Of a stretch of 64,000 nt of DNA, positions 13,380 through 55,190 are shown in pieces; the first letter of the stretch is position 1, and every line of letters starts with the position of its first letter. Below the pieces are notes generated by a model. That model saw nothing but the letters and a program-made list of their open reading frames with translations. It was not told the origin of the DNA and made no database searches. Both the position numbers and the translations under genes were made by a program. The DNA is from Clytia hemisphaerica (Eukaryota; Cnidaria; Hydrozoa; Leptothecata; Clytiidae): the NCBI GenBank assembly GCA_902728285.1, contig CACVBU010000879.1:232382-296381 (forward strand), given 5' to 3'.

Positions 13380-14600
13380 GCGAGTTCATCAATTTTGACC
13401 CTCCAAAAAAGAACGAAATTGTATCTACCCTCAAATCTTTAAAGAATGGTAAATCCTCAAACGCTCTTCCTGTATAATTCTTCAAGTATGCAGCCAAACG
13501 CGCTATTATCAGAGCTCGAATTAATACTTCTTTAAAAATGGACGACGAAATCTATACCATCATCATGGGGTCATTCAAAGCTTATTGCCTTATGGAAAGG
13601 AGAAGCTAAAGGAAGTGCGAAAGACCCATCATCGTACAGAGGTTTACAAGTAGGATCAAGTCTTTGTAAAGTTATGGTGATAATAACTTGAATAGACTTA
13701 AAGACTGGTATGACGAATAACTGCTTGACCAGCAGCAAGGATTTAAACGTGGTAGAGGAACCGCAGACGGCATATATGTGACAAAAAGACTTCAACAAAT
13801 CTCGGACAAAACACAAAAGCCAGTATATCTCCTATTCGTCGATTTGAGCTCCGCGTTCGACCACGTTGTGCGAAATTGGCTTTTCGAATCCATCTACCAG
13901 AGATTTCCTGAGCAAGTCGAGTCTACCCTAATAAATCTACTCGAATCATTGTATCATAAAACAACAACATCATTAGCACAAACTCCAGATGATGTTTTCA
14001 AGCTTCTACTGCTAATTCTCAATGAAACATTTGTTCGTTTTCACCTGCAAATAAACGCCAAGAAAACCAAAAATTTCAAGTCTCAAAACCAAGATGAGTA
14101 TATCCTCAATCTATCGTCACGCTTTATGATCAAGTCATCGAAAATGTTGAAGTGTTCAGATATCTTGGAGACGACATACACTTCAATTAACCTTCAACAG
14201 GAGATGCCTACATTAATATGCTTCGTAAGATGGTGAGAGGCGGCTTTGAAAGAAATATCGATGAAAACAATGAGCAAACTTTCCACTTCCTCATGTCAAG
14301 TGAAGATGTTTTACGCGTCTGTAAGACTGAAGACATCCTTCAATACGTCAAACGACAGCAGCAAAACTATCTTGGCCATATTGCAATACAAAAGAACACC
14401 AGCATTGTCAAAAGACTGCTTTTCAACGACAACGCTAACAAGAAAAGAGGCCGACCAATCAAAACACTCGAAGATCACGTGCTTGATGGTCGGTGAGCAG
14501 ACGAGTTCTACAAAGAGGTCTTGAAGAAAAAGAAGGATATGGTTGGCCTTCGCCCTAACCACTCAATGTTGGCACCTGCGAACACGAGCTAAAGAAGAAG
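13380..14600 (+). mobile_element. non-LTR retrotransposon (RTE-like) reverse transcriptase fragment
   Basis: Translated pieces read VSTLKSLKNGKSS, LLDQQQGFKRGRG, VYLLFVDLSSAFDHV, NWLFESIYQRFPE, LHLQINAKKTK-like text, then a C-terminal block with GHIAIQKNTSIVKRL and KKRGRPIKTLEDHVL. That is the order of a LINE ORF2 from RT finger to C-terminus. The frame is broken by several stops and shifts, and the palm segment with the catalytic YADD box is missing between about 14,000 and 14,010. It lies in the intron between the last two kinase exons, on the opposite strand. Dead copy. Confidence 0.88.
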
Positions 14601-34539: not shown

Positions 34540-36957
34540 ATGCAAGCAGCAGGTATTTTCTAATTTTCAAAATTTTTATATTAGAAAATAGAATTCATCA
34601 AACTAAAGGCATTAATTGCTTCAAAACAAAAAGTGATAATTCAGATGGTTTTTTTATATTTTTAACCTACAGATACCTTCTAGGGTCAGCATAGGAATTT
34701 AAGAATTTTAATCTTTGTTAGGTAGAGTTCTGGGGGATAGGAAAAGATTGTCCAAAATTACCTTGTCCGGAGGTAATTTGGGGTGCCTGGGGGTCAACTG
34801 ATGCTTGTCCAGAGCTAAATCTATTGTCAAAAGTTATGATTACTGGGGCAAATCAATTAACTTAATTGTCTCCCTCCTCCACCGCCAGTATACATTTTTT
34901 TCTGGAAGAAGCCATGCGGTTTTTTATTATTTCCTTCATATTTTACACAATAACTAGTTATGTTCTTTCTTTAGGTAAAAGAAAAAAGCTTACAACAATC
35001 ACAGAAGTGTTATCACTCAAAGAGAGTGATAAATTTTTACTTCAAAAAATTGATGATAAGATAGGTAAGCAAGTATTTTCATCTTATTTGCTTATTCAAG
35101 TTTAGGTTAGTTTTTTGGAGACCACTTCTGGCTCAAAATTACTGAAAGTGAGGGGTTGTTTGAAAAAGTGCAAAATAAGGGGAGGGTAAAAACAAAGGAA
35201 GGGTTAAAGGAGCTTAACAAGAAAATGGAAAGAATGTGAAAAGTTTCATTGAATTTTACTCAACAAAATTAACTCATGGAAACAAATGACTTTTTAAGGT
35301 GAACTTATTAAATTTATTTTGGTGAGAACTAATTTTTGCGAATTTGAAAAATTAAATGTTTTACTTAGTTTTTTCGTTAAAAATTGATCAAAATTGCTCA
35401 AAATAAGGTAAAATTAAACAGACAATTACAGATTTAACTAATTTGCCAAAATTAATTCTCACCGCAATTATAAAAAAACCACCATTCTCCAAAATAAGTT
35501 CTCACCAAAATTAAAACAGACCTTAATAAGAAGTTTATGGTATCATTTTTCAGGGCATGGTGTTTTTGCCAAGACAGATTTCGAAAAAAATGAAATTCTT
35601 CTAGAATATAAAGGTAAATTTACACGCCAAATAAGCACTCTTCAACAGTGCGAATATAGCATGTGAAGATAAAATTTGGTTTATTTTGAATTTCCCATTA
35701 TTTTACTGCTGTCTTTAAATGGAATTGCAAACTCATTTTTTGTTTAACTGTTTTCATTATCAAACTTGTTACTCTTTTATTGACAAACTTAATTTCTCAA
35801 ATTAGGGGAACGTATATCCAGAGAAGAATCCCGACGAAGATCCATCGAATATGAATATTCAAACAAGGGGTCTTTCATCTTCGATGGGGCCAAAGATGTG
35901 TATGGGAATTTCGTTAGGTATATTATTTTAATTCTAACATTAACTGTGAATCAAACTTCTTTCTTTTTTTCTTAGAATTTTAATAAGAAAAAAGAATAAG
36001 TGTCTCTTGACACTCAGTAATATAGTTTTCATATTCAATGAAAATCTCTGCTTCAGTCCAGAGGGAATGAATCTCTTGAACAGGTGTTAATTTTTTTGTA
36101 CTGAAAAGTGTAATTGTGTGTGAGCTATTTTTCTGTAAAATTCTTGAAATTTATAGCTAGTTAAATGTTAGTTTACATAGTAAATGAAAAACCTTCCTCA
36201 AATAAAAATCTTGGACTATCATGATACTATCTTATTATATTATTTCAGTATTGATGCAACTTTCTATGATGATTACGGACGTTTCGTCAATGATTCACCC
36301 AAACAATTCGCCAATGCTCAAGCAGTAAGGCTAGTGCACAAAGGCATTGTCCGAATAGTGCTGAAGTCAATAAAACCGATCTCAATTGGAACTGAGCTTA
36401 GGTAACAAACATATTTCCATCTTCTAATCTCTCAATTTTTTCTTTGAGAAAATGAGATGGCAACACGCATATGTTGGGAATAGGGTATTTTAGTGGCCAA
36501 AATAAGCTTTTTCTCGTCTTACTGGTGATTTTTTTTAATTACAATTTTGACGAAGATTTGACTAATGAGGTCCTACAGTTTTGAAAACAAACTCTGCTAT
36601 TCAGCAATTTTTGAAATGATTAGTTATCTCTATTTGGTTTTATTTTTGTTTTAATCGCGATAGCTGACCGTTATTTTGATCACTGGTATTTATAATGAAT
36701 TCAAAATTTTAATTTCAATTTCAATTTTAACTTTAACAAATTACATAGATTTTGTTCTTGTAAATTCTATTTCTTTTAAAAATATGTCTTATAAGGTCTT
36801 CAAGAAAATTTAAAAGCTTTGTAAGAGTGTCATGACTTTATCCTAAATTTTTCAGAGCTTTATAATTATTTATATTTCTATCAATTTTCTACTCAATTTT
36901 AGATATGATTATCTTGAAGGAGGTGGATCCCTCGAAGCAATGCCATGGAGGGCACCA
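34540..36957 (+). other. SET methyltransferase domain (exons 1-6 of the fusion gene)
   Basis: Residues about 30-150 of the predicted protein. Landmarks: IGHGVFAK (35-41), EILLEYKGE (48-56), ISREESRRR (58-66), SFIFDGAKD (77-85), SIDAT (92-96), GRFVNDSP (102-109) and GTELRYDYL (139-147). This is the order of a KMT5A/SETD8-like SET domain: G-x-G for AdoMet, IDA, the pseudoknot (R)xxNHS and E-(L)-x-YDY. The NHS motif is NDS here, with His replaced by Asp. There is no Cys-rich post-SET. In the known family the YDY tyrosine lines the lysine channel. Start chosen because the 4-codon first exon (MQAA) has a good donor and the correct phase; a more upstream exon cannot be excluded. Confidence 0.85.
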
Positions 36958-39900
36958 GTATGTAATTTTAATACTTTTGCATATAAGAAACAAACTTTTG
37001 CAAAACTTTAAATCCATGGCTAGTTCGATTCTTTTAGACTTTCATGAACAATGTGTTTTTGTATTTGTCCATATAATTTACTTCTATCTTACGGAAAGAA
37101 AAATTGTTTTTTCTAGCAATTGGAACCCTCCAAGCCATGTAGCTTCTATTATGATGAAGCCGGCGAGGTACGAAAACTGTCTTAGTAAAGTTGTTCAGGT
37201 TTACTTTTCAAACTTAATCTAAGGCCTTGAAATATTTTTAGATCAATGCAATACCAAAATATCATTTCATCAGTCTTTTTAATTTTGAGTCATATGAATC
37301 TTAATAAGCCAAGGCCGAAAATGGTTATTCACGTGAAAAGTTTTATCATTATTGTTGTTATAACTTTTTAGATTGTGATTGTTGGGGCTAAGACAAAGCA
37401 ACCTGGTATACTGAAAGCTTCACAAGTAAGTTTTTTTCTAAATTTGCTTTCATATTGGAATGTACTACTTGTACTTATACTCTAATTACATATTAAAAAC
37501 AACAAAGAAATTAATAAACTGGCAAAGGGTATTTAAACCTTTAGAAATACAAATTGGGACTATCATTTACTGTTTTATTCCAGGCCATCCAGCATATCAA
37601 TGAAAGGTTTGAAAACAAGGTAATGTTATATTTTATTTAAATTCCAATCTACTTTTAGGCGGTAGTCAAAATTTCTTCAATGACGATTGAAACATATATT
37701 CAGCTATCTGCCTTATGAGATTAAATCTGTTAAATATAAACATCTTCTTTTTTTCAGTCAAATGATGATGGAGTACCACCTACACCAGAAAAGGCAATAG
37801 ATCAAAGTTATTTTAAGTTTAAACCGATTAATAGTAAAAGTAAAGAAGGTGTATTTTTGGTACCATTGTCGCACTGAACTCAAAAAATTTGAAAATCTTT
37901 ACAAATGTTTACAAATGAATATTTTGTATTTTTCTTCGTTAATGCATTTCATAGTAATTTTGTGATTAATTTCATTATTCAGGTTGGATCAAAAAGGTCA
38001 ATTCTGGAAAGAAAATCAGGTAAATACATTTTTTCTAAGGCAAATTCTATGGGTATAGTATAGATCACAACACGCATTATTTATGTTTCAATAGTATATA
38101 GTAGTATATAAAATTGTACTGAACAATATAAATTGACAAAAAGAATGAATTGCATTGTATCAGCGCAAGGAACATTTTGAGGTCATTTTGCTTGACCGTT
38201 GCATCGTTGTGTGTACATATATTAAACCATACTAGTTTGTTTTATTCTTCCCTTCTAATTACCTTCTTTTTTAGTATGTGAACCAAATGAAAACATCGTC
38301 AATAAGAACATATTTTTGACCCCTCCAAATAATGTCGAGGAAGATTTGGTAAGAAAAAATTTTGATAACTAATAATGTAAAGAAGTGGGTTAACCACTCG
38401 CAAAAGGGGAATCGTGTGAAAGAAAATCAACTCCTCTAAATCAGAATCGAGTAATTTTCCACAGAAGACGATTGTCCAAGAATAGTGATCTCAAACCATT
38501 GATTATTGTATCAAAATAGTCTTCTCCACAAACTACGTCCTTTATTTAACTTATATTTCCTATCCAATTACAAGTTGACATTGCTCTATTATTCTTCTCG
38601 TCATGTTATTATCTTCATTTTCTATTCTTTTAGGTGGATTATCATTTCCTTGTTGAATGGAGAGATGATGGAGAAGTCATAGAAGTAATTCAGGTAAATG
38701 AAAGCAATTAAGAATATGTAATGTTTTCAATTATTATTTTCACCTTTGTAACAAAAGCCTCATATTTTACCTATTGGTAGGTTTTTTAAACCAACAGAGT
38801 TATAAATCTAGAAATTACCGTGTCAACAAAGTTTATGGAAGAAATTTGTTTAAAACTGTGCAATTCTTTTCTGCGAAAGCTGAAAATTGAAAGCAAAAGA
38901 AATTAATGACAACTGATATAATTCAGGATATTAAATATTTTTTTGAATAGGAAAGTATGGAATCACAGGAATACCAAGAAATTCTTCTTTTACCTGAACA
39001 AACTGAGTCGTGTTCAACAACATCTGAAAGCAGCAAAATTAACCAGGTAATTAACCAAATCCAATAGTATCTTTTCATCTCATCATCTTCTTATTCACAT
39101 CAGTTAACAAAAGCCTCATATTTTACCTATTAGGGGTTTTTATTAAAACCAACAGATTTATAAATCTAGAAATTACCGTGTCAACAAAGTTTATGGAAGA
39201 AATTTGTTTAAAATTGAGCAGAACTGAGCAATTCTTTTCTGCGAAAGCTGAAAATTGAAGGCAAAAGAAATTGATGACAACTGATATAATTCAGGATATT
39301 AAATATTTTTTTTTAATAGGAAAGTATGGAATCACAGGAATACCAAGAAATTCTTCTTTTACCTGAACAAACTGAGTCGTGTTCAACAACATCTGAAAGC
39401 AGCAAAATTAACCAGGTAATTAACCAAATCCAATAGTATCTTTTCATCTCATCATCTTCTTATTCACATCAGTTAACAAAAGCCTCATATTTTACCTATT
39501 GGTGTTTTTTTTTTAAACCAACAGATAGAGTTATAAATCTAGAAATTATTGAAGAAACTTGTTTAAAACTGAGCAATTCTTTTTTGCGAAAGCTGAAAAT
39601 TGAAGGCAAAAGAAATTAATGACAACTGATATAATTCAGGATATTTTTTTGAATAGGAAAGTATGGAATCACAGGAATACCAAGAAATTCTTCTTTTACC
39701 TGGACAAACTGAATCGTGTTCAACAACATCTGAAAGCAGCAAAATTAACCAGGTAATTAACCAGATCCAATAGTATCTTTTCATCTCATCATCTTCTCGT
39801 TCAATAAAAAAACTGATCTTGCATTTTCGCACTTTTTGGAATTAAGTTCCATCCACAAAACAGGGTGCTATATCAAAGTTATTTTCTTGTTACAGAGATG

Positions 39901-42900
39901 CACAATTGTTGAGGAGCCCAGGTAAGCCCAGTTTTTTAAGTGCACTTTCGGTGTGTTTTTCGGGCAAAAACACGGTCTCAGGCCAAAATTGTGGTGGATT
40001 TTTAATGTGCGAGTTGCGAGTTGCACTTTTAAGTGCAACTTAAGTTTGAGTTGCAAATTAAAAGTGCAAGTTGCAAATTAAAAGACTAATCATATTATGA
40101 GGGAAAATTAATCATGAAAACTTTTGCTTAAGAAAATAGGGTGATGTTATATATATACAATTCGAAAGGTCTCAATAATTAAGATAAAAGATACATTAAG
40201 ACTGATATGCGAGCGATACCTATACCTAACTCAAGACGTCAAGTCTCAAAATACCCAAAGAGTGAACAAAACAGCTCTTCCTGGCTAAGATTTACGATCC
40301 CACTAAGATGAATAAAACGGGATGAAACGATTAAGAAGCTCAATTTATAGAAATCGTCCATTTTATACCTTTTCCCCTTTGTGATTAGAACGTTTATTAT
40401 GAAAAATATGCTGTTTCGTTTTTTTTTTTTCTGGACGCACTGTGTAGACACACTAGACACACTATTTATTTTACGAACTTGATTATAGATCTACATTCCC
40501 AGAGCACAATTCAACCCATTTGTCATCTATACCATCACAGCAGCCGAGATGCATAAGAACAACTATTGACGAACCTAGGTAAGGCAAAAACCTTTTTAAA
40601 TACTATTGATTCTTCAGCAAAAAAATTATTTTGCCCTTTTCATCAGTTTATGGCAAAAATATTAAGTTTTGTATCAAAAATACCTCCAGTACGCATTTTG
40701 ATGCCAAATAATACCGAAATGCCACTTTTTAAGGCATTTTTGGTTGGTTGCTTAGCTTATGATCAATTTTTGGGCTAGGTTTCTAAGTCGAGTTTCTTGA
40801 TTCTTTGGCCATTTTCAAGACCCTTAACCACCACAGATATCTTATATAAAACACTATAAAAACACTAAATGGAGCTTCTTTATATTTCCCAGGCAACGGG
40901 AGGCGAAGTAACATAATGCGCCATCTTTACTAAAAGTAGACAACAGCTCGGTGCCTGCAATTTGTTCAATCAAAACAAACATCTGGTATTGCGGAAAGTG
41001 AGGAGGCTAGAAGATGGGCTTGATTGAACAAATTGCCGGCGCCGAACTGTGGCTTACTCAATAAAGATGGTGCATAATTTTGAATCAGCAGGGACGGAGA
41101 TGCTCCAACTTAGTATTTTATATAAGATATCTGTTAAAAGTAATAATGTTTAATTTTAAAGGGAGTCATTTTACAGGCATGTTTTCCACTATGCCAGAAA
41201 TATGAATGGAAGGAATATTGTATTAATAAAGCTCCTACTTTCATCTTAGACATATTTCCAATCATGTGATGAGACAGCAAATAGAAGACACATCTGATAT
41301 CGTAAAGAAGAAGCCTTCTATAGCCCGAGAGACAGATAGGTATGAAGACTTATACTTTAATTTGTTTCCATATTTTATGTGCTCCTTCAGGCTTCTGTAA
41401 TCCTTTGATTATAGATTTTGTGCCAGGATATGATATTATTAACATCAATGTAGCGTTTTCATTTGGGTGAATGTCGTTCGATTGAAAGTAACATTTCACA
41501 GTTTTTGTAATTGTAGTCATATGAGAATGACGCCAATTATAGCAACGGGACTAAGCAACAAAAACAATTCCAACATAGTGCTCCAGAGAAAGGTTCTTGT
41601 AGTCATCTTTCTGCTCTTTCCCTTTATAAATTCGTCTCTATTAAATTCTGGAGAATTCTTGACAACTAACCATTCCAAGAACTTCTTGAAGAGTGACTCT
41701 CAAATCACCCTAAAGCTAGTCCCAACCCCCAACCCTACCTGGGCACCTTCCATTTTAGACCTTACCCCCGGGGGCACTCGATCTGAAAACGACCATACGT
41801 TCGGCGGAAAATTTGGTTTCCAAAATCGAACCCTTAAAGTGCATGCAGAGAAAATTTGGCCAAAAAATGACCCTTACAGTGGGGGGCTAGAGGAGGAAAG
41901 GATGTAAAAAAGACAAGAAAGAACGAAGAGTCGTGTTTGAATAAAAAGGTCAATACCACTTTCTCTCCCTAAAAAGCTTGTCTGGCACACACAACAAGTT
42001 GGCCACACGACACCACCCTTGCTACCATCTTTGTTTACATTTTTTTGCTGATGAAGCATTTTTAAAAGCGCGGGATATTTCCGACCATCAAGTTATATTT
42101 CCGACCATCAAATTATATTTCCGACCATTACGCTATGATATTTCCGACCATTAAATATATTTCCCGCCCGTCTACGGAAAAAAAAATTGCGTCACCGACC
42201 TCCCAACTCCTTTTCAAAATGGAGATATCGCATTTAGAAGTTTTTCCCAAATATGTGACCTCATTGGGTCCCTCTACCCCTAATGTTGTCAACGGTCAAT
42301 TCGCGAATTTTGAAATTTTTGCGGTCAACGGGTAGCCTATACTAGACGTCACCCGCGTTTTTTTACGCAATTAACGTCTATTCCACTTTGCGACTTTTTC
42401 GAATGTTTTGAGCCCGGGCTCTAAACATTCGATTTTTTGACGTCACTTTTAACTTTCGAAGCTCCTGCAGTAGCAAATAATCGAATTTGCGTCAGAGCAC
42501 TGGAAAGGCTTTTATTTTTCGAAAATCGTCAAAGTGGAACTCACTAAGAAACGAGATGAAAAATCCCGGTTTTTAGTGAGGTGCTCGCTACTTATGCCCC
42601 AAGGGTCCCAAAAAAACAAAAACGTCAATTATTTCCACGGGAAAGTGGATTTTTAAATTTGCGAAAGATTGACACTGCAACGACTTCTTCCTCAAAACGA
42701 TAATTTTCACACTCTTCCCCTGACCACTTTCGCTTTCGTTCTCAACCACCCATCTACCCAAACTGAAATCGGTCACGTAACTTTCGAACCCCCATCTCAA
42801 AAATCCATAATGGCCCCTCGTAGCTCACTCACATTAAACTTTTAGTATATACTGTAGATAAAGATTTCTGAAGATTAGAAACATTTTAACTGTAAAATAG

Positions 42901-45900
42901 GGGAACTCGGGAATTTTTGAAAGAAAAATGCTATACTAAAAAGTAACAGCTCCTTAGAAAAATATCATTGAGTGGAAGATTACTATTGGAAGATAATATT
43001 CCTTGCGGAAAGTAAAAAAATCATATCTCGACGATTCCGAAACCTCATTTTTTCTTCTACATTTACATTCAATTTTTTGAAATTTTTCCTTAATTAAGAT
43101 ATTCCACTCATTGATATCTCTCCAGAGAGGTTTTACTTTTTGTTATGCCTGTTTCCGTTCAGGTCCAATGTATCAAAATGTGCCGACTGCCAATTTTTTT
43201 GAAATAAAATGTAAAATGCCTAAAATATTAACCGATGTTAAAAAGTCCCGAGCTTGTGAAGGCAATACATTTGTCATTATTTAAGGTATTACACGTGGAG
43301 TATTACTTTCAATCGAAAGTCACTATACCAAATTATTAAAAGACTGCGTTGTGTTAATATCAGTTCCAACCCTCTCACTCTCTTAATGACCCTCACTCAT
43401 TATTTGACTTTGGATTTAGTTTTGTACGTTTAGTCCAGACTTGTTTACTCGAACAGTTCGAGAATCAAACTACTCGAACTTACTCGAACAATTGGTACTA
43501 GTAATAACATGGTTAGAGGGTGATTTGGGATTAATAACTCCGATGTTCATTGAAAACATTTCAAAATAGCCCGAACGTAGTGAGTAGTGGCTTAAAAACT
43601 TCGTACGATATTTTGTTAACCATCAAAATATCGTAGAAATTTTTGTTTACATCAGGGCGATTACAAGAAAGCGGGGCAATTACGGATTTATCGCCCCGCT
43701 CGTCCTTTACAAATCTAAGCTAAATGTAATCAACCATATAATTAAACAGCTAATAATTAGGACGAACTCGTTTGGCCTCTACATCAATAACGCTCGAGAG
43801 GTTTAAACTTTCCAATTATCGTAAAACTCAAAAGTTCGAGTAAGTTCGGTTCATTACCCAAACTTACTTGAATTTCATGTTTTTCAAAAATTGTGAGGAG
43901 TTCGAGTGATTTTTTTACTCGAACTTTACTTTACTTTACTTTACTCGAAATACACGGGTAAGACAGTACAGTAATAATCGTGTTTTTCCCTATTTAGCAA
44001 GAGGCTCGTATCAGTGGAAGAATTTTTTCATCCAGAATTTCTTGGGTATGCCCTACTGTCTATTATTGCCTATCCAGGCCTATCTATTATTTGACAATTC
44101 TTATAGCGTAACTTTTAAACTTTGATTTCTCACTTTTATCAATCTCAATTCATATTGTCTGTGTTTAAAAGCTTGTTAAAGGAAAGTTGGGTTTTTTGGC
44201 AATTTGTATCAGAAATCCTTCCGCTCGAAAGCTTTTCACTATCAATAATTAAGTATTTTCCTTTTTCATAGCTTTACAAAGAGGCAAAAGTGGCGTATTT
44301 GTGAAATGTATGTCCAAATTCTCGCGCAAAATTTTATTTTACTTTAAATAAGTATGATCTGGAATAAATATTTTTCATTTTAAAGGCTGCAAAACTATAT
44401 ATTCGTTGAGTGATTTTTTCATTTATCGTAAAAATTGTAAAACCATTTAAAATTTTAAACATTTTTTGTTATTTTAGGCGTTCTTCTACCAAGCAGTCGC
44501 CTATTGATGTAGCCACCAAGAAAAGGTATGGAATCGACTTTTTGGACCTACCCCGGTGGGGTGGAGGTCCTATAAATTAACCTGTGTTCGTCCGTCCGTT
44601 CGTATGTTACCAACTTTTCTCAGGATTGAATCATAGGAATCTTTTGATTTTTGGTATAAAGGTGCAAAATGGTGTTGGCCAAAATGTGACTGAGCCCGAT
44701 TTTCGAAAAAAAAATTTTGGGGGTAAATTTGGGCCAAAAAACGGCTAAAAAACGTTTTTTGGACTTTGTGAAAAATTGAATCATTTTTTTTTTTTCTGAT
44801 TTTTTGCATGAAAGTAGGGTACCATCAGGGGGGGACACGCAGTTACTACAAGACAGTATGACACTTACTACCGTGGTGGTACTGTATTCAGAAGTTATGA
44901 AAACAACGAAAAAAAATTTTTCTCAGACCCAACTTTGAAATTATGCTTACCCTAATTATCATTAAAATGTTCTCAACAGCTGTTAACCAAGTAAATTAAA
45001 AGAAAATCTAGCACAAAAATGGCTTTAGGTTGATAAATAATCGCAATTTAGGGTAATTTATAGCATGTTTTTGATGATATCACTCAAAAACAGGGGTGGT
45101 ACCTGGAAATCTTTTCTGAAAACAGTTACTACCAAGGTGTAGTAACTGCAAAGGGTGGTGGTCCCGAAAAAAAGTGTTGAAAAAGCACTTACTACACATC
45201 ATGTCTTGTAGTAACTGCGTGCCCCCCCCCCCCTGGTACCATCGTAGGTAAAAGATGGCTCAAGCAGATTTTCGTAAAAAAAGAATTTTCAGCTCAAAAA
45301 ACGCATATTTATCTATAAGAATCAATATTAATAAGCATACATCAATGCTCTTAGCCAAATTACTAAAATTGTTGATGAGATGGATGTTTTTTTTGTTCAC
45401 GAAGTCTTGAATATGAAAGAATATTTTAAGAGTATGAAATATTGGTCTCTAAACGTTTTTTTTTATAAGAAACAAACGAGTAGTAGTAGTAGTAGAGATT
45501 TCTCGTGGGCATATTGATTTTGGGCAATTTTGGGTGCCTCTACTCTATGCAACAAAATGGCCAGAATTTTAGTATTTTTGACAACTTGTTACCTTTGACA
45601 TACTCCAAAAATCAAATTAGTCAGTCGACTATGGAATATGACGTTTTTCAGTGTTTCTACCCCCAATTTGATTGTCAAAGAGTACTGTATGTAGGTAAAA
45701 TGGGCAGAAAATGGAACAAATCGATTTAATCGATTTATAGTATTGGGCTATTCCAGAAAAAATTTGTACCCCCTATGTTGAGGAGGTCTTTTTCCGGAAA
45801 GGTGGACCCCCTGGATTTTTTCCAATTTTTCAGGACCCTCCTGGATTTCTCCACCCCTGGTTTTGGTCTTTTTTTATGACCCCCCCCCCCTGGATTTTTA

Positions 45901-48900
45901 CACTCAGAAAACTAGACTCCTCTGGATTTTTTTTATTTTCCAGACCACCCTGGAAATCACACCTCCTCAACATAGGGGATACAGACTATTTCTGGAATAG
46001 CCCATTCTGACCAACCTGGTTTATACCAGTACCGGAGACCCTAAAACTTATCATGTTCTAATCAAGTCATCAATAGTCATAATTGGAACCGTTTTGATGT
46101 AATAAAACAATATTTTGCCTTCAAATTCAGAATTGAAAACTATCTGAAACATCATACAGAATTGCCCGTTTTGGGGGTATTCTGGCCAATTTGGTGTATA
46201 AAGTAGAAGGTACTAAAACAACTCAGCCAAAATGAGTGTGATATTCGGAATCAGCACCTAAAATATGTCCTAAATCAACTTGTCCACCCGGGGGGGGGGG
46301 CACCCAAGGTAAATGACCTACCAGACGTTCGGCCCTCAAGGGTAGGTTTTTCATAGTTCAGCTAGTGCACTGTAAGGGTAGGAAATTACAAAACTGCACT
46401 GAAATGCACTGTAAGGGTAGGAAATTGTGATAAAAGGCCAATTTTTTGGTAAAATTGGCACAAAATTGGTCAATTTTGGAGGAAAAATTCCACATTTTCT
46501 TGGAAAAACGCAAAACTTTCGCCCTTACGGGTGAGAAATTTTGAAAAAGTGCACTGTAAGGGTATGATTTTTCATGGAAATTCACTGCACTGTAAGGGTC
46601 CGATTTTAGAAGCTAAATTTTGGGCCGAACGTATGGTCGTTTTGAGATCGAGTGCCCCCCCCCCCGGGTACACATAACCATAGTATAAGAAAGCCGCGGC
46701 TGGAATATGTACCGGCATTGTCTTTTCAGTTAATTGCTGTTCCATCTCTGTCTCCGAGCTTTATAAGAACATCAAGATGCCCAGTTTATTTTTGGTAGAT
46801 AGTTTTTGAAATTTTTATGTTATTTTCCTTCACAAAAAGTTTTTCATGGCTAGATATTTTTGAATCTGTACCCAATAGAACACTTGAACTAATTTTGGAC
46901 ATATTTTAGGGGTGTTTTGTGGAAACAATAGTTTTTCACGAAAATTTAAATTATAAGAACTTTATTCAAGATGAGAACTTTCCTGTCAGTTTGGAAGGTG
47001 CTGGCTTGAAATTTTTCACAGTATTATCTCGATGTACTTTTTCATTTATTTCTAAAGAAGATTTCACTGAAATATTGTGAAGGCGTTTGAGGCACTTTAT
47101 TAATTTTTGAGCTCTTTCAGCACAGTCATTTTGTGCTTGTTTAAATTTCTTATTGTTGATCTTTCCTTTAAAATAATCATCAGATTATCAGATACGACAG
47201 AGATAGAACAACACAAATTCAAGATGTTATCATTCCAGCCACGGCTTTCTTATACTATGACATAACAAATCCCAAAAAGTCGATTATACTTCTTTAAGAA
47301 GGGGGTCCTACTTTCGGCATGTTCGGAGTATGATGATGTCACTGTCACGAAAGAAATGCTTTACGAATGATTTAAGAAATTTTACTAAAGGCAATATTTT
47401 GTTCACACTGCGAAAATTTCAAGTTGACTAGATAAGTATTTCAAAAGTTATCGACATTTTTCGTTTAATTTTCTCTTTAAGATGCACGACGGGATAAGAA
47501 TTTAATGGTACCACGTATTTCATCCTTTAATGTCCCAGTTTTTAACTGGAATTGCAAAGGCAAACTATTTTTTAATTCATTTTCTGGATCATGTAGCGGA
47601 AATGTTAACTTACTTCTGACTATGTAAAAAAAATCGAATGTTTCTGTGACGTTTTGGCGCTAAATACAGAAATTTGACACCGCGATGTCTTAATTTCAAT
47701 TGTAAGGAAAGAAATACCATAGGAGAACGAAATTAATGTCTAAAATTACAAATTCATGCTCAATCAGCAATTATTTCAATCCCCCAAAATAGTTTTAAAT
47801 CATTTAATATATTACACTTTAAGGTATTATATTTACACTTTCAAGGTCTTTGGCGAAAAATAAAGTCTCGAACTAGCAAAAAATAGTGTACCAAATTTCT
47901 TGCTTATTTCCCGTCCGGAACTTATCTACCTGTGATGACTAACTTAAACCTACACACCAGGTAATGCTGATATGTAATTTGAGGGTTTAATATAACCTTT
48001 CCTCTACAGTCCTCTACAAAAAGATCTAAGAAATCTTAAAACTTTTGACTTTCCGAATCAAAAACTGGCACTGGGACTGGGAATGTTTTCAAAGTTTATT
48101 ATCAAAGGCAAACGGTACCTATTTCAAAGTTAATTATCCAAGGTAAATGGTACCTATTTCAAAGTTTATTACCCAAGGCAAATGGTACCTATTTCAAAGT
48201 TAATTATCCAAGGCAAACGGTACCTTTTTCAAAGTTTATTACCCAAGGTAAATGGTACCTATTTCAAAGTTAATTATCCAAGGCAAACGGTACCTTTTTC
48301 AAAGTTTATTACCCAAGGCAAATGGTACCTATTTCAAAGTTAATTATCCAAGGCAAACGGTACCTTTTTCAAAGTTTATTACCCAAGGTAAATGGTACCT
48401 ATTTCAAAGTTTATTATCCAAGGCAAACGGTACCTTTTTCAAAGTTTATTATCCAAGGCAAACGGTACCTTTTTCAAAGTTTATTACCCAAGGTAAATGG
48501 TACCTATTTCAATGTTTATTATCCAAGGCAAACGGTACCTTTTTCAAAGTTTATTATCCAAGGTAAACGGTACCTTTTTCAAAGTTATTATCTCCAAGGC
48601 AAATGGTACCTGTTTTAAGTTTTAGGAATCGGCTATATATCGCCTAAATGTCCTTTATATCGTCTTTGGAGGCTATCTAATGGGATAAGCATAGAGTACA
48701 CCCCCCAGAGATTTGGGGGTACCTAAAAAACACGAATTTAAGAGGTACCTGGTATATTTGGGGGTACCTGTAATTTCGTAAGTGGGGGGGAGGGCTGTTC
48801 TTTCTGTATGAAGTATTTTCCTTGACTCAACCAATTTTCAATCGGACCTTTTCATTGAGAAGACTTTATAACTTATGTCTTTCCCTAGAGGTAACTCAAA

Positions 48901-51900
48901 GTTGGGGGGGGCTACGTTAGAATTCTAAAAATCTTAGGGGTAACAAAATGATTGGGGTGCCCAGGAGGACCCTATGATAAGTGGTTATTGGTTTTAGTTC
49001 TTCTCGTTTAAGACGTACCTGGAGCTCTTATAAATTAACTTTTGCCGTTTGTTTATTCGTCCGTCCGTCCGTCCGTCCGTCCGTTTGTCCGTTACCAGCT
49101 TTTCTCGAGATTGGCTTATTGGATTTTTTCTGATCCTTGGCAAAAAGATGCAAAATAGGGGGGGGGGGGGTGTTCGAGGGGTCTGCAATATCGTAATACC
49201 GTAATTTTTTCCCCCAAATACCGTAATACCGGACAAAATAAACTTGAAATATTGTCACCGACTATCTGTTTAAATATTTTTAGGCCTCATTCCGGGGTGA
49301 ACTACTGCAACCAAATTTACTACTCTCAGGTGCCAAATAAACTCCCCCCCCTGCTTGTTAATTTTTCGAACATTTTCCAACCCCCTGGACCTTAGTAGGA
49401 CCCCCCCCCATTTATTAATTTTTAAGAATATTTTCAGCTGTCGAGAAGGTTCCTTATTTTGCTCTAAATAGCCTGATTTTAGCCTATATTTACCTTGTTT
49501 TACCATTATTTGGCACCTAAGAGTAATCGTTTAAAGTTTTAGGATGACCTTCTAGCGCAGCTGGTTTATATTTTAACTTATTTATCTTTGCAGAGAACAT
49601 GGAGAAGAAAAAGCAGTATACGAAGGAGAAGAGAAAGAAGAAGAACACGGAGGAAAAGAGAAAAAAGAACACGGAGAAGAGAAAGAAGAACACGAAAAAG
49701 AAGAACACGGCGAAGAAGAACACGGAGAAGAAGAACACGGAGAAGAGAAAGAAGAAGAACACGGAGGAAAAGAGAAAGAAGAACACGGAGAAGAGAAAGA
49801 AGAACACGAAAAAGATGAACACGGAGAAGAAGAACACGGAGAAGAGAAAGAAGAAGAACACGAAAAAGATGAACACGGAGAAGAAGAACCCGGAGAAGAG
49901 AAAGAAGAAGAAATCGTCATTCGACGAAGCGGTTTGAGCGCGTAAGAAAATCTTTTATTTTTTATTTCATACCTGTAAATTTGGAAACAGTATAGCGTCG
50001 CATGCGCAACTTTTTAAAGTTTCCCTATGAAAAACAATGTAGAAAGAATTGAAAGTTACCGAATTACCATGGTTTATGAAGTTAAAAAAAATCGTGTTGG
50101 TTTAGCTCGTCTTAAAATGACATTTTATGAAAAATGGTGTTCTCTTTTTTAGGAAGATCCAGAAATCACTTTCAAAAAAGAAAACAAAGAGGTAGAGTGC
50201 TAGATCATACCTATTATATCAGTCAAAGAAAAGCTACTTTATTTTTCGAAATCGAGAAGAATTTCTCGTAGATTTTATTTACACAATTCGAAGGTTATTT
50301 TAAGTTCTGACCTAATTTGTCTTAAAAAGTCACTTCGGAGGTGCTTGTTCGAATTTCATCATTTTTTTGTTGTTTTTTTAATCGCAAATACTCTTAATTA
50401 TTACAGGGAAATGAAAAGATGTATTGTGGACCCATTGCATATAGTGCCCGATTTACCGAAAGCATTTACGAGACGTTCATGGGTTTTCACGCGTTGAATC
50501 CTTAGCAGCTATGTCGCAGTATGGCTTGCGCAAAGTGCCAAAAAAAACAAAAATAAATTATCATCACAGAAAACTTTGTCCCTTCAACTGTGGAAAAGCC
50601 CTCGTACACCTAGGACCACATTTCCTTGCTGAGCACAAAGAATTGGTCAAAGAAAAGGGTTCTGCAGAATATATCAAATCATTGAAAATGGCAAAAAGAT
50701 TTGATTCTTCTAGAATGGAATTCCCTGTAGACAGAACGAAACCAAATGTCGAACTAGGTGTCATAACCAATAAAGGTGCACCTTTGAGAAATATCTCTCG
50801 CTCAACAGCTGAAAATCAACTGGCTACCAGAAGGGAATTTGTACCATCTCATGCTTTGGCGTTCCTACGTCCTACTTCGGCTCAAGACCGAGAAAACCTC
50901 GAAAATTTACCGTCTGACCTAATAAATTCTTGCCCACCAAGCCAAGTGAACTCTTATCCATCGACAAGCACAGCCGTGTCGCACTTGGAAAATTCTGCTT
51001 CATCAAACTTAAACAGCGAATGTAACAGAGACATTGAAGTTGCATTAAAAGATTTCTACAACTATATGATTGGTCCAGATAAAGGGCGCAAACCATCGTC
51101 AGTTGCTGAGGTTGTTAGAGATGTCAAAAACATTCTCTCAGATATTGATGTAACCAACCTTAATGAACTTTTTGACTTTAACTCCCAAATCGTCAGGGAA
51201 AGATACATGAATGGAGTTATCATCGAACGCAATCTCAAGCCGGCTAGTGTTGTAAAGTACCTAAGCTCTGTATTAGACTTCGTGAAATTTTTAAAAGATT
51301 CCCCTTATATTTCCAGACTACCGCGAGAAAACGTCAAAGCGTTAAAGAAAAACATTAAAGCTTGGGCAAAAAAACTGTCTAAAAAATGTAAAAAAGACAA
51401 AATGATTTCGAGACAAAAGGATTATATAATGCTAATTACGCACGAACAAGTTGCTGATGTTCTGTCAAGTGAACCCGGTCGTCTAGGTCAGCGTGTATAC
51501 TCGAAGCTGTTGGAAGACTCAGAGTTTGGCCTTAGTATGACTGACTATTGTGCATTGCGGGATTACTTATATGTCAAGATACTTTTTACTAATGCGTGTC
51601 GATCTGGTGTTCCTTCAGAGATGCTGATGAGCGAATTCAAAAACCGCAGGAAACTAAAAGACGGTACCGGATACCAAATAGATGTAGATAACCATAAAAC
51701 AGATTATAACTTCGGCCCTGCTACCATCAAAATTAGTAACCAAGACTTTGATGTAATGAAAGTATATGTTGCTCACGCTAGACCCCAAGTTTTACCTCAA
51801 TGCATGCATGTGTTTCTTAGTTACTATGGAAACCAGCAAACTGGTGGTGATATAAGTTCAAGGCTGAATGTCATGTTCATGAAGGCAGGAGTGAGAAAGG

Positions 51901-54900
51901 ATGAAGACTTACCGAAAAATTGGTGTGTAAACATTATCAGAAAATCGGCATCAACTCATGCTAGAGAAGATAATAACATTGATAACCAAGCCCTTGCAGA
52001 TACAATGTGTCATTCCGAAGCAACAGCTAAAGAACACTATTGGCCACGTGCTAGAGAAAAAGCTCTGGTAGCTGGAACAGATGCTCTTCAAAAAATCTTT
52101 TTTGTAAGGACGTTTTTTGCTAATATATTTTCCTAAAATGGAAGACCTTCTTTATCGGGTTTACCTGACACTCCTTTTGGGGCTTCCGATATCACTTGGG
52201 AACTCTCTGGTATAGTTACTTTTGCTAAACGACGGGGTTTTGTTGTTGCTGTGCGTGACAAGATCTGAAAATTTAACCTCTCCAATACATACACAAACTC
52301 TTAGTGGAACCTGTTCTTCTTCAAGTATGGTTCTGTAACGTGGACTAAGACCACAGGTTGAGAAAGACTTGACGATTGTCAATGTAAAAAAGCTCCAGAA
52401 CAACGAAAGCATCCTGATCTGAGGTTAACCCTGTGGTATCAGGCATCCAAGCGGTAAAGAAAAAACGTTCCTTGAAAGTCTTAAACGGGAAACTGGACTC
52501 GAAGCGACTGCCTTGTTAAATGCTAAATCGGGATCTGTGAAGGAATATGTAGTTGGTAAATTTATGTTTTCAATAAATGATAGTATTTTTTGTTTTTCAG
52601 CCAAAGAAAGGAGGAAACGAAGAAGAGAAGACAAGTAATGAAAATGTGAGTTTAAAACACTATTCATCCCGGGTTTCCAGATATCGTATCACCATTCAAT
52701 GCGAACGATTGCATTCTGGTTTTGAAATTTAACATCATAATTATTTCAGTAAAAGGCTTTTTGTGATGAATTGAAACTTTGATAAAGTCATCATTTTATC
52801 GTTTCTTTGCTAAAGGAACCACAGGAACCAAAGGAACCACAGAAACCACAGAAACCACAGGAACCAAAGGATTGTTGCGAGGAGAAAAGCATTGACAATG
52901 TGAGTTTGAAATGCTAAGTATTCATCCCTGGTTTCCAGATATTGTATCACCATTAAATGCGAACGATTGCATTCTGGTTTTGAAATTCATCTGCATTAAG
53001 AAATCTGTAAAAGGCTTGTTGTGATGAATTGAAACTCTGGTAAAGTCATCATATTTATCGTTTTCAGCCAAAAAAGCCACATAAACCACAGGAACCAAAG
53101 GATTTTTGCAAGGAGAATATGATTGAATCCGTAAGAATAAAACTATTCTTTCCGTGTTTCCTTTCCGTAATTGCATTTTACTGATATCGTATCACCATTT
53201 AATGATAATGATTGCGCTTTGCTCTTGAAATTCATCTTCCTTGTGATTTTTTTCTATTAACGGCTTGTTGTAATGAATTGAAGCTCTGAAAAAGTTATCA
53301 GTTATCACTGATTTTCTTTTTCGTTTAGACACCGACAAAGAAAACGAAGGTTAGTTCTTTCTTTAACCTAACTACCTTAAAGTGAATTTTCGTGGATATT
53401 AAATTTTCGCTCCAAGAAACGTGCTTCGCGTGTATTAACTTTCGCGATTGCCATTTTCTGGAATATTTCCCTTAAGGTCTGTTCATTTGTTCGATTGCCC
53501 CTGAGGCTCACAAGACACTTCTAGTTCTGGCACACTTCCAGTTCACAAATTTTACAAGAACTGGAGCTGTCTGGGGTCAATGGCCCAGAAGGCTCAAAAT
53601 AGACACTGCGTACTTCTGAAAAAAAATTCTCTTTGAGAGTTCAAGTAAAGCTTCAACTATGCATGTATGACAAAAAAATCTTGGTTTAACTCAAATAGAG
53701 GCCGAGTTGAGTTGAGTTATCGAGTTTTATCAAATTATTAAATTTAAGAGTTACGTTATGTGGTCTGTCTGTTTTACATGATTCATTATTGGCACGAAAA
53801 TTATATTTTCCAGCTTGTTTTAATCTAATCATCAGACTGGATAATGATTTTTGGAAAATGTATTTCACTGCCTCAGTAATCACTAGGTTACTCAAAAACT
53901 CGCAAACTAGAAAACATAACTCATTTACAATAACTCGCCCTAAATTTCCCAGACCTGAAAGAGAATTTTTATGAAAATCATGTTTGAGAATTTTCACTCT
54001 TGAGAATTTTTTCTTACTTGAAAATTTTTTTTCAGAACTGTGCAGTGTCTTTCGAGCCTTCTGGGTCATTGAGCCTAGACAGTTCCAGTTCACAAATTTT
54101 TGTTCAGAACTGCGCAGTGTCTTTTGGGCCTTCTGGGCCATTGAGCCTAGACAGTTCCAGTTCACAAATTTTATAAGAACTGCAAGTGTCTTGTGAGCCT
54201 TAGAGGCCATCGTACATTGGAGGGAGGGACGAATGAAATACATTATGTATCCTGTCAAAAATTCATCTACACTAATTTGTTAAGAAAATATCGTCAAAAA
54301 TGATTCAAATTGACTGTATGGTAGAAAGAATTACAGCACGAGAAATCATATATACCATTTTGAAAAAGAGCGATTGTATCTAACCTTCATTTTCTTTTTT
54401 AGAGAACGCGTAAAACTTGGAAGCCTGAGGAGCTGTCAGCGTTAAAGAAAAGTTACCCTACTCGATTGAGCCTTGGAGATATAACAGAAATAGACAACCT
54501 CGAAGCCTCACCTCGGCAAATCTATGACCGAATGAGAGTAAGTTTCTTTGAATATCCTTTTCTTTGCAATAAATTGGTATTTGGCTCTTCCAGAAAAAAT
54601 TGTTGTGTTAGTAGGATGGAACATAACATTTTGCTATACGCTAGATAATATTTCCTCCGACCAGGGTGTACAAAGATTTCCTAGAAGCATTGCGGAACTG
54701 CTTTTCTTTCAGATACCTTAAGGGAACTAATTTTCGCGATTTTAGGTGCGAAAATCAGTTCCTCGTGTTTTACCTTTTTACCACGAAGATTAGTTCCCTT
54801 AAAGGTAAAGCTAATACCTCCTTGAATAATATTGTAACACTTTACAGCAAGACTTTATTGATTTCTCCTCGTCAGAAAGATCCCGATTATGAGCCTTCGG

Positions 54901-55190
54901 ATAATCAAACTTCCAGCGAAGAATATGACGACAACAATGACGAGGAAATATGTATCGCCAAAAAGAAATCTCCAAAGAAATCACTTTTTAAATTAAAGAA
55001 GACTACACGCGCGAGATGGAACACACCCGACAAAGATCTTCTTGCGGAGAAAACAAACGGGAATTTTTTGAGAGGTTTGGTTTTGAATGAAGATAATATC
55101 AAAGAGGAGTTAAAAGGCAGTTACCTACTAACAAAATACAAATGGACTCAGATCAGAACAAGGTTAACTTATTTACAACAACAGTCATGA
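34540..55190 (+). CDS. SET - zinc finger - tyrosine recombinase - SANT gene, 31 exons, one frameshift
   Basis: Exons: 34540-34552, 34975-35064, 35554-35613, 35806-35917, 36249-36401, 36903-36957, 37117-37167, 37372-37425, 37584-37619, 37758-37850, 37983-38019, 38275-38348, 38634-38693, 38951-39046, 39320-39415, 39657-39752, 39896-39921, 40489-40578, 41250-41339, 43998-44045, 44272-44307, 44478-44525, 49594-49941, 50153-50191, 50407-52103, 52601-52645, 52816-52899, 53068-53130, 53329-53349, 54403-54537, 54876-55190. All junctions are GT-AG and every phase matches, except one surplus base in exon 25. About 1,420 residues. A SET domain suggests histone/protein lysine methylation; the recombinase suggests descent from a mobile element; SANT-like ends suggest DNA or histone binding. 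It may be a chromatin-targeting transposon or a domesticated gene. Splitting into a SET gene and a recombinase gene remains possible. Confidence 0.7.
35296..35530. repeat. degraded copy of the 'ccttaaggg' MITE in intron 2
   Basis: Paired text 'aacttatt...ttttggtgagaacta' and 'attctcacc...aaaataagttctcacc', reaching 'gacctta'. Diverged from the copies at 20,971 and 55,692. Confidence 0.55.
38750..39780 (+). repeat. tandem triplication containing exons 14, 15 and 16
   Basis: A unit of about 337-369 bp is repeated three times, each with part of the flanking introns and one 96-bp exon. The exons are near identical (start ESMESQEYQEILLLPEQ, end SESSKINQ); the third has Gly for Glu in LPEQ. Each is phase 0 at both ends, so copy number changes keep the frame. 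Confidence 0.95.
40835..41143. repeat. inverted-repeat element in intron 18
   Basis: Outer arms 'acagatatcttatataaaa' and inverse. Inner arms 'ttgttcaatcaa' / 'ttgattgaacaa' and 'gccatcttta' / 'taaagatggtgc'. Confidence 0.75.
41755..41885. repeat. half copy of the 'cccccggg..cactcgatct' element
   Basis: 'ccccgggggcactcgatct' followed by 'acgaccatacgttcggc' matches the inverse of the right end of 46,270-46,670. Intron 19. Confidence 0.65.
42334..42598 (+). repeat. dispersed repeat, full copy (partner of 4,528)
   Basis: 'agcctatactagacgtcacc' to 'gaggtgctcgctacttatg'. Contains the middle segment with 'gagcccgggctc' that the 4.5-kb copy lacks. Confidence 0.7.
42935..43145. repeat. weak foldback element
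   Basis: 'aaaaagtaacagctcc...atatcattgagtgga' pairs imperfectly with 'ccactcattgatatctctcc...acttttt'. Confidence 0.45.
43430..43930. repeat. repeat rich in 'tactcgaac' motifs
   Basis: 'tttactcgaac' clusters occur at both ends with the inverse 'gttcgagtaagttcgg' inside. Probable inverted-repeat element in intron 19. Confidence 0.5.
44541..44817 (+). mobile_element. dispersed GTTC/GTCC-tract element (plus-strand copy)
   Basis: 'ggacctaccccggtggggtg', 'aggtcctataaattaacctg', a short GTCC/GTTC tract, 'gttaccaacttttctc', 'gagcccgattttcg', 'ggccaaaaaacggctaaaa'. The plus orientation shows the order of the family. Interrupted on its right by the next element. Intron 22. Confidence 0.8.
44818..45240. 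mobile_element. inverted-repeat element with poly-G/C ends, 423 bp
   Basis: Ends 'ggtaccatcagggggggac' and inverse 'gccccccccccctggtacc', with inner arm 'gcagttactacaagaca'. Inserted in or beside the GTCC-tract element, hence younger. Confidence 0.85.
45745..46003. mobile_element. inverted-repeat element, ~259 bp
   Basis: Ends 'gggctattccagaaaaaatt' and near inverse, with 'ccccctatgttgaggaggt' paired on the other side. The core is C/T-rich and repeats 'ccctggattttt'. Intron 22. Confidence 0.85.
46270..46670. repeat. inverted-repeat element with poly-G/C ends
   Basis: Left 'cccggggggggggcaccc', right 'gtgcccccccccccggg'. Contains four copies of 'gcactgtaagggta'. Related to 41,755. Confidence 0.75.
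46679..47259. mobile_element. inverted-repeat element, ~580 bp
   Basis: Ends 'catagtataagaaagccg' and inverse 'cggctttcttatactatg', extended by 'ggctggaat'/'attccagcc'. Non-coding interior. Confidence 0.82.
48085..48612. repeat. 35-bp minisatellite, ~15 copies
   Basis: Unit 'aaggcaaacggtaccttttt' followed by 'caaagtttattaccc'. Variants (tta/taa, ttttt/tattt) alternate, giving a 70-bp higher-order period. Because 35 is not a multiple of 3, the open frames through it are artefacts. Intron 22. Confidence 0.95.
49010..49160 (+). mobile_element. dispersed GTCC-tract element (5' part)
   Basis: 'gtacctggagctcttataaa', 'ttaacttttg', (GTCC)n, 'gttaccagcttttctcgaga'. Shorter copy of the family. Confidence 0.7.
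49300..49530. repeat. poly-C-bearing repeat, partner of 55,310
   Basis: 'ctctcaggtgccaaataaac' with C7, 'ttttcagctgtcgag', 'aaatagcctgattttagcc', closing with 'ggcacctaagag'. The same order is present at 55,310-55,570. Confidence 0.8.
49594..49941 (+). other. Glu/Lys/His-rich low-complexity exon 23
   Basis: 116 codons with acceptor 'tttgcag' and donor GCGC/GTAAGA. Read in the frame set by the preceding exon (phase 2), it gives repeated EEHGEE, KEEEHGG and EEHEKDEHG units, ending IVIRRSGLSA. The other two frames give Lys/Asn/Thr-rich and Arg/Thr-rich strings. The phase match chooses the acidic one. Likely a flexible acidic linker between the SET half and the recombinase half. Confidence 0.65.
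50407..52103 (+). CDS. tyrosine recombinase (Crypton-like) exon 25 with zinc fingers
   Basis: From the ATG at 50,511 the frame is open for 531 codons to the donor TTTTTT/GTAAGG. A C2H2-like motif has C23, C27, H37, H42. A SAM-like core-binding region spans about 175-265 (DFYNYM, KPSSVAEVV, LKPASVVKYLSSVL). The catalytic domain has R364 (TNACRSG), K396 (NHKTDY), R477 (NIIRKSA), H501 (CHSEA) and Y510 (KEHYW). These are the residues a tyrosine recombinase needs for strand cleavage and joining, although the usual HxxR His is N474. Upstream of the ATG the exon encodes KRCIVDPLHIVPDLPK in the spliced frame, then HLRDVHGFSRVESLAA in the recombinase frame. This is a second finger split by one extra base near 50,462. 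A short product from the 50,511 ATG would bypass the shift. Confidence 0.85.
52601..53130 (+). repeat. tandemly duplicated exon-intron units (exons 26-28)
   Basis: Three units of about 215-250 bp share intron text ('tttccagatat.gtatcacc', 'gcgaacgattgcattctgg', 'ttgtgatgaattgaa') and Pro/Lys/Glu exons (PKKGGNEEEK, EPQEPKEPQKPQKPQEPKD, PKKPHKPQEPKD). All exons are phase 0, so they lengthen a proline-rich linker without a frame change. Exon 27's acceptor (gctaaag) is weak. Confidence 0.8.
53500..54230. repeat. inverted-repeat element with internal direct repeats, intron 29
   Basis: Ends 'gaggctcacaagacactt' and inverse 'aagtgtcttgtgagcct'. The right half has two ~85-bp copies of 'cagaactg.gcagtgtcttt' ... 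'agttccagttcacaaattt'. The 190-codon minus-strand frame across it shows no domain. Confidence 0.75.
54403..55190 (+). other. two Myb/SANT-like segments (exons 30-31, C-terminus)
   Basis: Exon 30: RKTWKPEELSALKKSYP, IDNLEASPRQIYDRMR. Its W, helix spacing and RQIYDRMR third helix fit a Myb/SANT fold. Exon 31: an acidic stretch (EEYDDNNDEE), a basic stretch (KKKSPKKS), then RARWNTPDKDLLAEKTNG and LTKYKWTQIRTRLTYLQQQ, a second Myb-like unit. Stop at 55,190. Such domains bind DNA or histone tails and could target the protein. Exon 31 opens at cgtcag/AAA; the closer 'ttacag' would hit a stop. Confidence 0.6.
54716..54805. mobile_element. 90-bp MITE of the 'ccttaaggg' family, TA-flanked, intron 30
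   Basis: 'ccttaagggaactaatttt' at the left, inverse at the right, TA on both sides. A minimal copy of the 20,971 family. Confidence 0.88.

Follow-up and report, generated by a model that had tools for sequence, protein, structure and literature searches.

A KMT5A-type SET domain, a linker, two C2H2 zinc fingers, a tyrosine recombinase (YR) and two SANT-like segments follow one another on one strand of the Clytia hemisphaerica genome. The linkage of SET domain and recombinase recurs elsewhere in the genome, with recurring intron phases and with the recombinase active-site residues kept. The arrangement occupies 34540-55190 of the window, i.e. the whole stretch of 64,000 nucleotides that was analysed (C605:232382-296381, + strand), in a genome of 417,433,876 bases and 951 contigs. 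We consider it likely that the intact form of the family is a single intron-rich unit of SET domain, linker, fingers, recombinase and SANT-like segments, which had a Crypton-like recombinase element at its origin and is partly still such an element. From sequence comparison we infer that this unit would be read as one transcript, that its product could recombine DNA and act as a methyltransferase, and that the family may be mobile. The window copy is probably a divergent family member in decay. The following features were assigned:

34540..34552, + strand: proposed start exon (MQAA); its phase fits the next exon; weakest of the SET exons
34975..35064, + strand: SET N-flank (KRKKLTTITEVLSLKESDKFLLQKIDDKI); counterparts in C207, C566 and C419
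35554..35613, + strand: SET exon (HGVFAKTDFEKNEILLEYK); aligned in relatives, intron phase recurs
35806..35917, + strand: SET exon (ERISREESRRR...FIFDGAKDVYGNFV); aligned in relatives, intron phase recurs
36249..36401, + strand: SET exon with IDAT and RFVNDSP, NDS replacing NHS
36903..36957, + strand: SET C-terminal exon (YDYLEGGGSLEAMPWRAP); the spliced SET scores 52 bits in Pfam
37117-37167, 37372-37425, 37584-37619, 37758-37850, 37983-38019, 38275-38348 and 38634-38693, + strand: seven linker exons; open chain
38951-39046, 39320-39415 and 39657-39752, + strand: exon in three tandem copies
39896-39921, 40489-40578, 41250-41339 and 44478-44525, + strand: linker exons ending in phase 2; placed by splice sites and phase only
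49594..49941, + strand: Glu/Lys/His-rich repeat exon; placed by phase and splice sites, tandem repeat
50153..50191, + strand: short basic exon (KIQKSLSKKKTKR); kept in the C432 and C492 copies
50407..52103, + strand: exon with two C2H2 fingers and the tyrosine recombinase; near 50461, within finger 1, the frame is broken by one base
52601-52645, 52816-52899, 53068-53130 and 53329-53349, + strand: Pro/Lys-rich linker exons; repeated units, phase 0 chain
54403..54537, + strand: SANT-like segment 1; counterparts behind the recombinase in C256/C419 and, weakly, C207/C208 and C566
54876..55190, + strand: last exon, carrying the stop and SANT-like segment 2, which has counterparts in C261, C327 and C431

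The first half of the arrangement had been described in an earlier note as a KMT5A-like SET domain, and profile searches uphold this. When spliced by hand the window SET reached 52.0 bits against the Pfam SET model (cut-off 22.4, E 1e-13), its single exons scoring under the cut-off. Among solved structures, a profile built from eight family SETs ranked the chains of KMT5A/SETD8 highest (E 7.8e-22), closely followed by KMT2A (1.8e-21), and its KMT5A match takes in the SET C-flank. The window SET taken singly scored slightly higher with EZH2 (39.3 bits, 5.3e-9) than with KMT5A (38.4 bits, 1.1e-8), the KMT5A match being the longer. Intron places and phases of the SET match, by eye, the exon starts of seven relatives; homology support for the start exon 34540..34552 is nil. 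The family differs from KMT5A/SETD8/PR-Set7, its best profile match, in that its SET is N-terminal and that the KMT5A motif NHS is changed to NDS, which was found in all ten SETs that were aligned out of the 45 SET loci. The place of this change is called catalytic core in the part of PMC4628957 consulted, hence the SET may bind more than methylate. Looking up the NHS residue of SETD8 gave no result.

Between SET and recombinase the exons were built by hand. Phases agree from 34540 up to the recombinase exon, and the five exons preceding the latter run from phase 2 to phase 2, as the earlier note had claimed for five introns before the recombinase. Read through 22 exons and on into the first 55 bases of the recombinase exon, the chain has 624 open codons. 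The first linker exon, 37117-37167, has a weak counterpart in C207. Among the three tandem copies within 38951..39752, the 96 exon columns are free of gaps and two of them vary; in the flanks, part of which lies beyond the repeat unit, 51 of 225 columns vary and a further 49 are gapped. The hand-built exons hold as an open chain, but exon 37758-37850 requires a poor donor, the better-looking donor two bases earlier (37848) giving 25 stops, and the linker exons at 39.9-50.2 kb are supported mainly by splice signals and phase. A chain model using splice sites only, trained on the other exons and on the acceptor and donor of the recombinase exon, lends these linker exons what we would rate as moderate support. 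Whichever of the three penalties was used, one in 40 local shuffles reached its score. With the middle penalty it returned three exons of the hand-built chain and no others, the other exit phases scoring 10.5 and 10.9 versus 11.9; with the lowest penalty it returned 15 exons, of which four are in the hand-built chain. Exon 41517-41592 was dropped from the chain because it breaks the phase pattern. Among the copies, whose SET-YR stretches were sampled in part, linker homology with E < 0.1 was found in the SET C-flank only. The long intron before the Glu-rich exon contains a 35-bp minisatellite (47982-48716) with 15 copies in register.

The recombinase lies within one large exon, its ORF being 50445-52136. 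The frame entered from the splice acceptor reads MKRCIVDPLHIVPDLPK and the recombinase frame starts HLRDVHGFSRVES; after the one-base break in finger 1 the frame is open again to the stop at 55190. Hence, of the exon with zinc fingers and recombinase proposed in the earlier note, the recombinase exon 50407-52103 stands, but finger 1 is split between frames and lacks its second Cys. As assembled, the window copy has no single continuous frame. In the four relatives that have finger 1 in alignment A3 it reads [DE]LPKH[LMTV]R in a single frame. Finger 1 is also open in the close copy C492; in the close copy C432 the frame is kept and a stop lies inside finger 1; both have further stops elsewhere. 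The second Cys, which is the second zinc ligand, is seen in relatives but lost from the window and likewise from C432 and C492. A break in the window where C492 is open means that the copy is decaying or that the assembly contains an error. We give about even chances to the view that either the window copy is a pseudogene or an assembly error has caused the break, such that little can be concluded on its product; this view is compatible with the other readings for the family. Apart from the break and the missing Cys, shared with C432 and C492, it draws on a dN/dS of about 0.5 between the window and its two nearest copies, whereas the otherwise open chain and the five active-site residues, all kept, speak against it. 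If the frame break is real, the window copy is probably not a working enzyme.

Tyrosine recombinases have an active site of R, K, R, H and Y, in that order. The putative equivalents are R386, K418, R499, H523 and Y532 (ORF from 50445), which are the R364/K396/R477/H501/Y510 of the earlier note at a numbering shifted by 22, and these are common to all unbroken copies covered. Changes at R/K/R/H/Y occur in C432 and C431; C65 and C327 are covered in part and C492 lies outside the alignment. The HxxR box of tyrosine recombinases has His first; here the first place is N in all covered loci except C39, which has T, and the window reads NIIR. Two family members, C59 (28.8 bits) and C594 (28.4 bits), both 37-38% identical to the window recombinase, pass the cut-off of 27.1 for PF00589 (Phage_integrase), which identifies the family as tyrosine recombinases; the window copy and the five relatives scanned score below it. 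Matches to the core-binding model are weak in the window (E 0.0043, below cut-off) and in four of the five relatives scanned, as are those to XerC/D (window versus XerC, E 0.0017).

The genome is rich in tyrosine recombinases: its listing contains 142 PF00589 and 74 DUF3504 matches, some of the former in open frames of over 1000 codons. None of the 60 family loci overlaps any of the 74 DUF3504 hits listed, which places the family outside DUF3504 as defined by the Pfam model. Of the Crypton reading in the earlier note, a Crypton-like origin is plausible, but membership in the CryptonA/DUF3504 type is not supported. With the recombinase as query, neither PHROGs nor the PDB sequences yielded anything useful, and pattern-seeded scans of IMG/VR and of bacterial and archaeal genomes retrieved no relatives. 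Among old lineages (C256/C566 and C208/C256) dS is saturated with a dN of 0.35 to 0.58, which argues for a protein that has long been under constraint; because of the saturation a long-term dN/dS value is not obtainable. Pairs of young copies have dN/dS values of 0.5 to 1.8, partly based on very few changes.

Behind the recombinase, both SANT-like segments named in the earlier note have downstream counterparts in relatives, with E 6e-6 to 4.5e-5 for segment 2 (C261, C327 and C431) and E 1.6e-4 (C256/C419), 0.06 (C207/C208) and 0.11 (C566) for segment 1, but the Pfam Myb/SANT match is weak (E 0.01) and restricted to the C256 relative. The profile searches suggested beforehand have accordingly given a pass for SET, a pass for the integrase in C59 and C594 with the window below cut-off, and a weak Myb/SANT match in C256 only.

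The genome was searched for other copies of the architecture. The window recombinase and that of a relative each gave 76 matches, and two SET queries gave 41 and 47. These were collapsed by hand to 60 recombinase loci and 45 SET loci, counts that are lower bounds; the 60 include weak matches (E up to 5e-4) that may be foreign to the family. At 13 of the 60 a KMT5A-type SET lies upstream on the same strand at 12.5-24.0 kb, with 0.10 expected per arrangement; a first count with one query each gave 10 of 48. The paired loci are C605 (window), C207, C566, C65, C261 (twice), C49, C431, C419, C39, C578, C308 and C327, of which the near-identical C261, C327 and C431 pairs are not independent and the second C261 locus is a weak recombinase match (E 1.1e-5). 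The reverse order, SET downstream on the same strand, occurs at one locus (C205), and a small antisense fragment at C419 has a SET downstream on the other strand. No SET was detected upstream on the same strand at the remaining 47 loci, which is weak evidence since the counts are lower bounds. Conversely, for 32 of the 45 SET loci there is no same-strand family recombinase in the 30 kb downstream, and at 31 of the 45 none was detected within 30 kb in any arrangement. The listed hits to PF00589 (142, of which C59 and C594 are members of the window recombinase family) and to DUF3504 (74) served as a control. Only 20 PF00589 and 14 DUF3504 hits share a contig with a SET locus; the nearest are at 55 and 53 kb, so that no hit of either kind is closer than 30 kb to a SET locus. 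A chance arrangement is ruled out by the linkage counts together with this control.

The earlier note had named, as an outcome that would speak against it, homologues whose two halves are always separate genes; this was not observed, though 47 of the 60 recombinase loci have no detected SET in that position. Its claim that SET and recombinase form one gene gains from the recurrent linkage and the phases, but for the window copy it meets the frame break of the assembly. A KMT5A-like gene and a separate recombinase element that merely sit side by side are an improbable alternative. Such neighbours would explain why C432 and C492 match only from 49994, with no SET exons in their fetched flanks, the lack of linker homology among the pieces compared, the many recombinase loci without a detected SET, and the SET and recombinase distances, which at seven loci do not correlate significantly as co-descent would predict (Mantel r 0.49, exact p 0.085). 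They would not explain 13 same-strand upstream pairs with 0.10 expected, nor the open, phase-matched chain of 22 exons. Furthermore, the recombinase exon has an acceptor with one leading base (phase 2) in the window and in C208/C207, C256/C419, C566 and C65, and C208/C207 and C566 are devoid of an in-frame ATG before finger 1. The latter argument is not general, since the window and C65, and also C256 in its upstream part, do have an in-frame ATG near and before this finger.

Several family copies are broken. C261, C327 and C431 are 93-99% identical where compared, i.e. at the SET end and the recombinase end, and span about 22-27 kb; C261-type stretches, many of which are partial, occur on at least eight contigs. 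The copies fall into groups with common break points (C261/C327/C431/C140; C341/C464; C905/C680), a pattern that transposition would explain no better than segmental duplication or recombination among copies. Neither clean element ends nor target duplications were seen in the copies compared. A clean C261-type 5' end at GTACTG was considered and rejected, as the flanks are common to whole groups of copies and an unrelated insertion with inverted repeats forms one of the breaks. This insertion, located in C431 (L046:527-3227) beside the C261-type break point, has ends GGGATCTTCTC and a TTAG duplication. C432 and C492 are dispersed copies of the recombinase part, broken by stops and about 92% identical to the window from 49994 (C432 to 52752). 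An element with the recombinase only, ending at 49994, was likewise rejected: C432 and C492 are homologous to each other further upstream, so that they look like one partial duplication rather than an element end.

These copies bear on a second alternative, to which we give somewhat less than an even chance: a KMT5A-like gene took up a recombinase gene, and the host gene family that resulted spread by segmental duplication, its product being a chromatin regulator and not a transposase. The intron-rich structure with recurring SET intron phases and the flanks shared in groups, as in segmental duplicates, agree with this, and no other DNA copy of the window SET stretch 35500-39200 was found. Many N-terminal-SET KMT5A-like genes are moreover expressed in the early embryo, according to the part of PMC10368294 consulted. 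On the other hand, active-site residues are kept across diverged members, which is needless for a pure binding role, and many copies are broken and spread over many contigs. The host gene family and the favoured recombinase element have the fused gene in common and differ in its present role, hence the confidence placed in them overlaps.

If the favoured reading of a recombinase element holds, the fingers and SANT-like segments might bind the ends of the element itself or target chromatin, the KMT5A-type SET could engage nucleosomes by binding or methylating the H4 tail at the site, and the recombinase would cut and rejoin DNA by means of Tyr532 of the ORF. A DNA-rearranging enzyme would then travel with a domain of the histone-methyltransferase type in one protein, and the use that a mobile element makes of chromatin marks at its own target site would become testable.

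Eukaryotic tyrosine recombinases are likewise found in animals as Cryptons (CryptonA/CryptonI) and in the DUF3504 genes KCTD1, KIAA1958, ZMYM2/3/4, QRICH1 and WOC. For animal Cryptons, the part of PMC3212892 consulted states that no terminal repeats were found and that a C-terminal domain is lacking, whereas the window family adds trailing SANT-like segments and a preceding SET. Another combination of a SET domain with a DNA-transposon enzyme is SETMAR, differing from the many-copy family with a tyrosine recombinase and a KMT5A-type SET in that it is one gene with a mariner enzyme. The mariner transposase is of the DDE type. SETMAR joined its SET methylase to this transposase about 50 million years ago (PMC6326780, part consulted). 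In the literature searched, which excludes subscription journals and preprints, no paper pairs 'KMT5A' with 'tyrosine recombinase', and among the matches listed for other SET and recombinase terms none names a SET-YR fusion or family, in line with the earlier note, which knew of no named family that adds a SET domain.

According to the consulted part of PMC10368294, KMT5A-like genes number up to 65 in Hydractinia, 61 in sea urchin and 24 in Hydra. Most of them have an N-terminal SET, and the longer ones of Hydractinia and sea urchin are alike at the SET and C-terminal ends. Like the window family, these expansions consist of many divergent KMT5A-type genes with N-terminal SET, and they may represent the same SET-YR family; the words 'integrase' and 'recombinase' have zero occurrences in the main text of that paper. 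More tentatively still than the host gene family, we propose that animals harbour large (about 20-27 kb), intron-bearing tyrosine recombinase elements whose own NDS-variant SET would read or write H4-tail chromatin at excision or insertion, and that the hydrozoan and sea urchin genes regarded as 'expanded H4K20 methyltransferases' are such elements or their descendants. If so, the reported expansion could reflect a recombinase family and not epigenetic regulators.

Elsewhere in the window, 596-2056 is a very long tetranucleotide-type array with frames that read (RTNE)n and (SFVR)n, and 13721-14236 contains an ORF fragment that by eye resembles a LINE-type reverse transcriptase.
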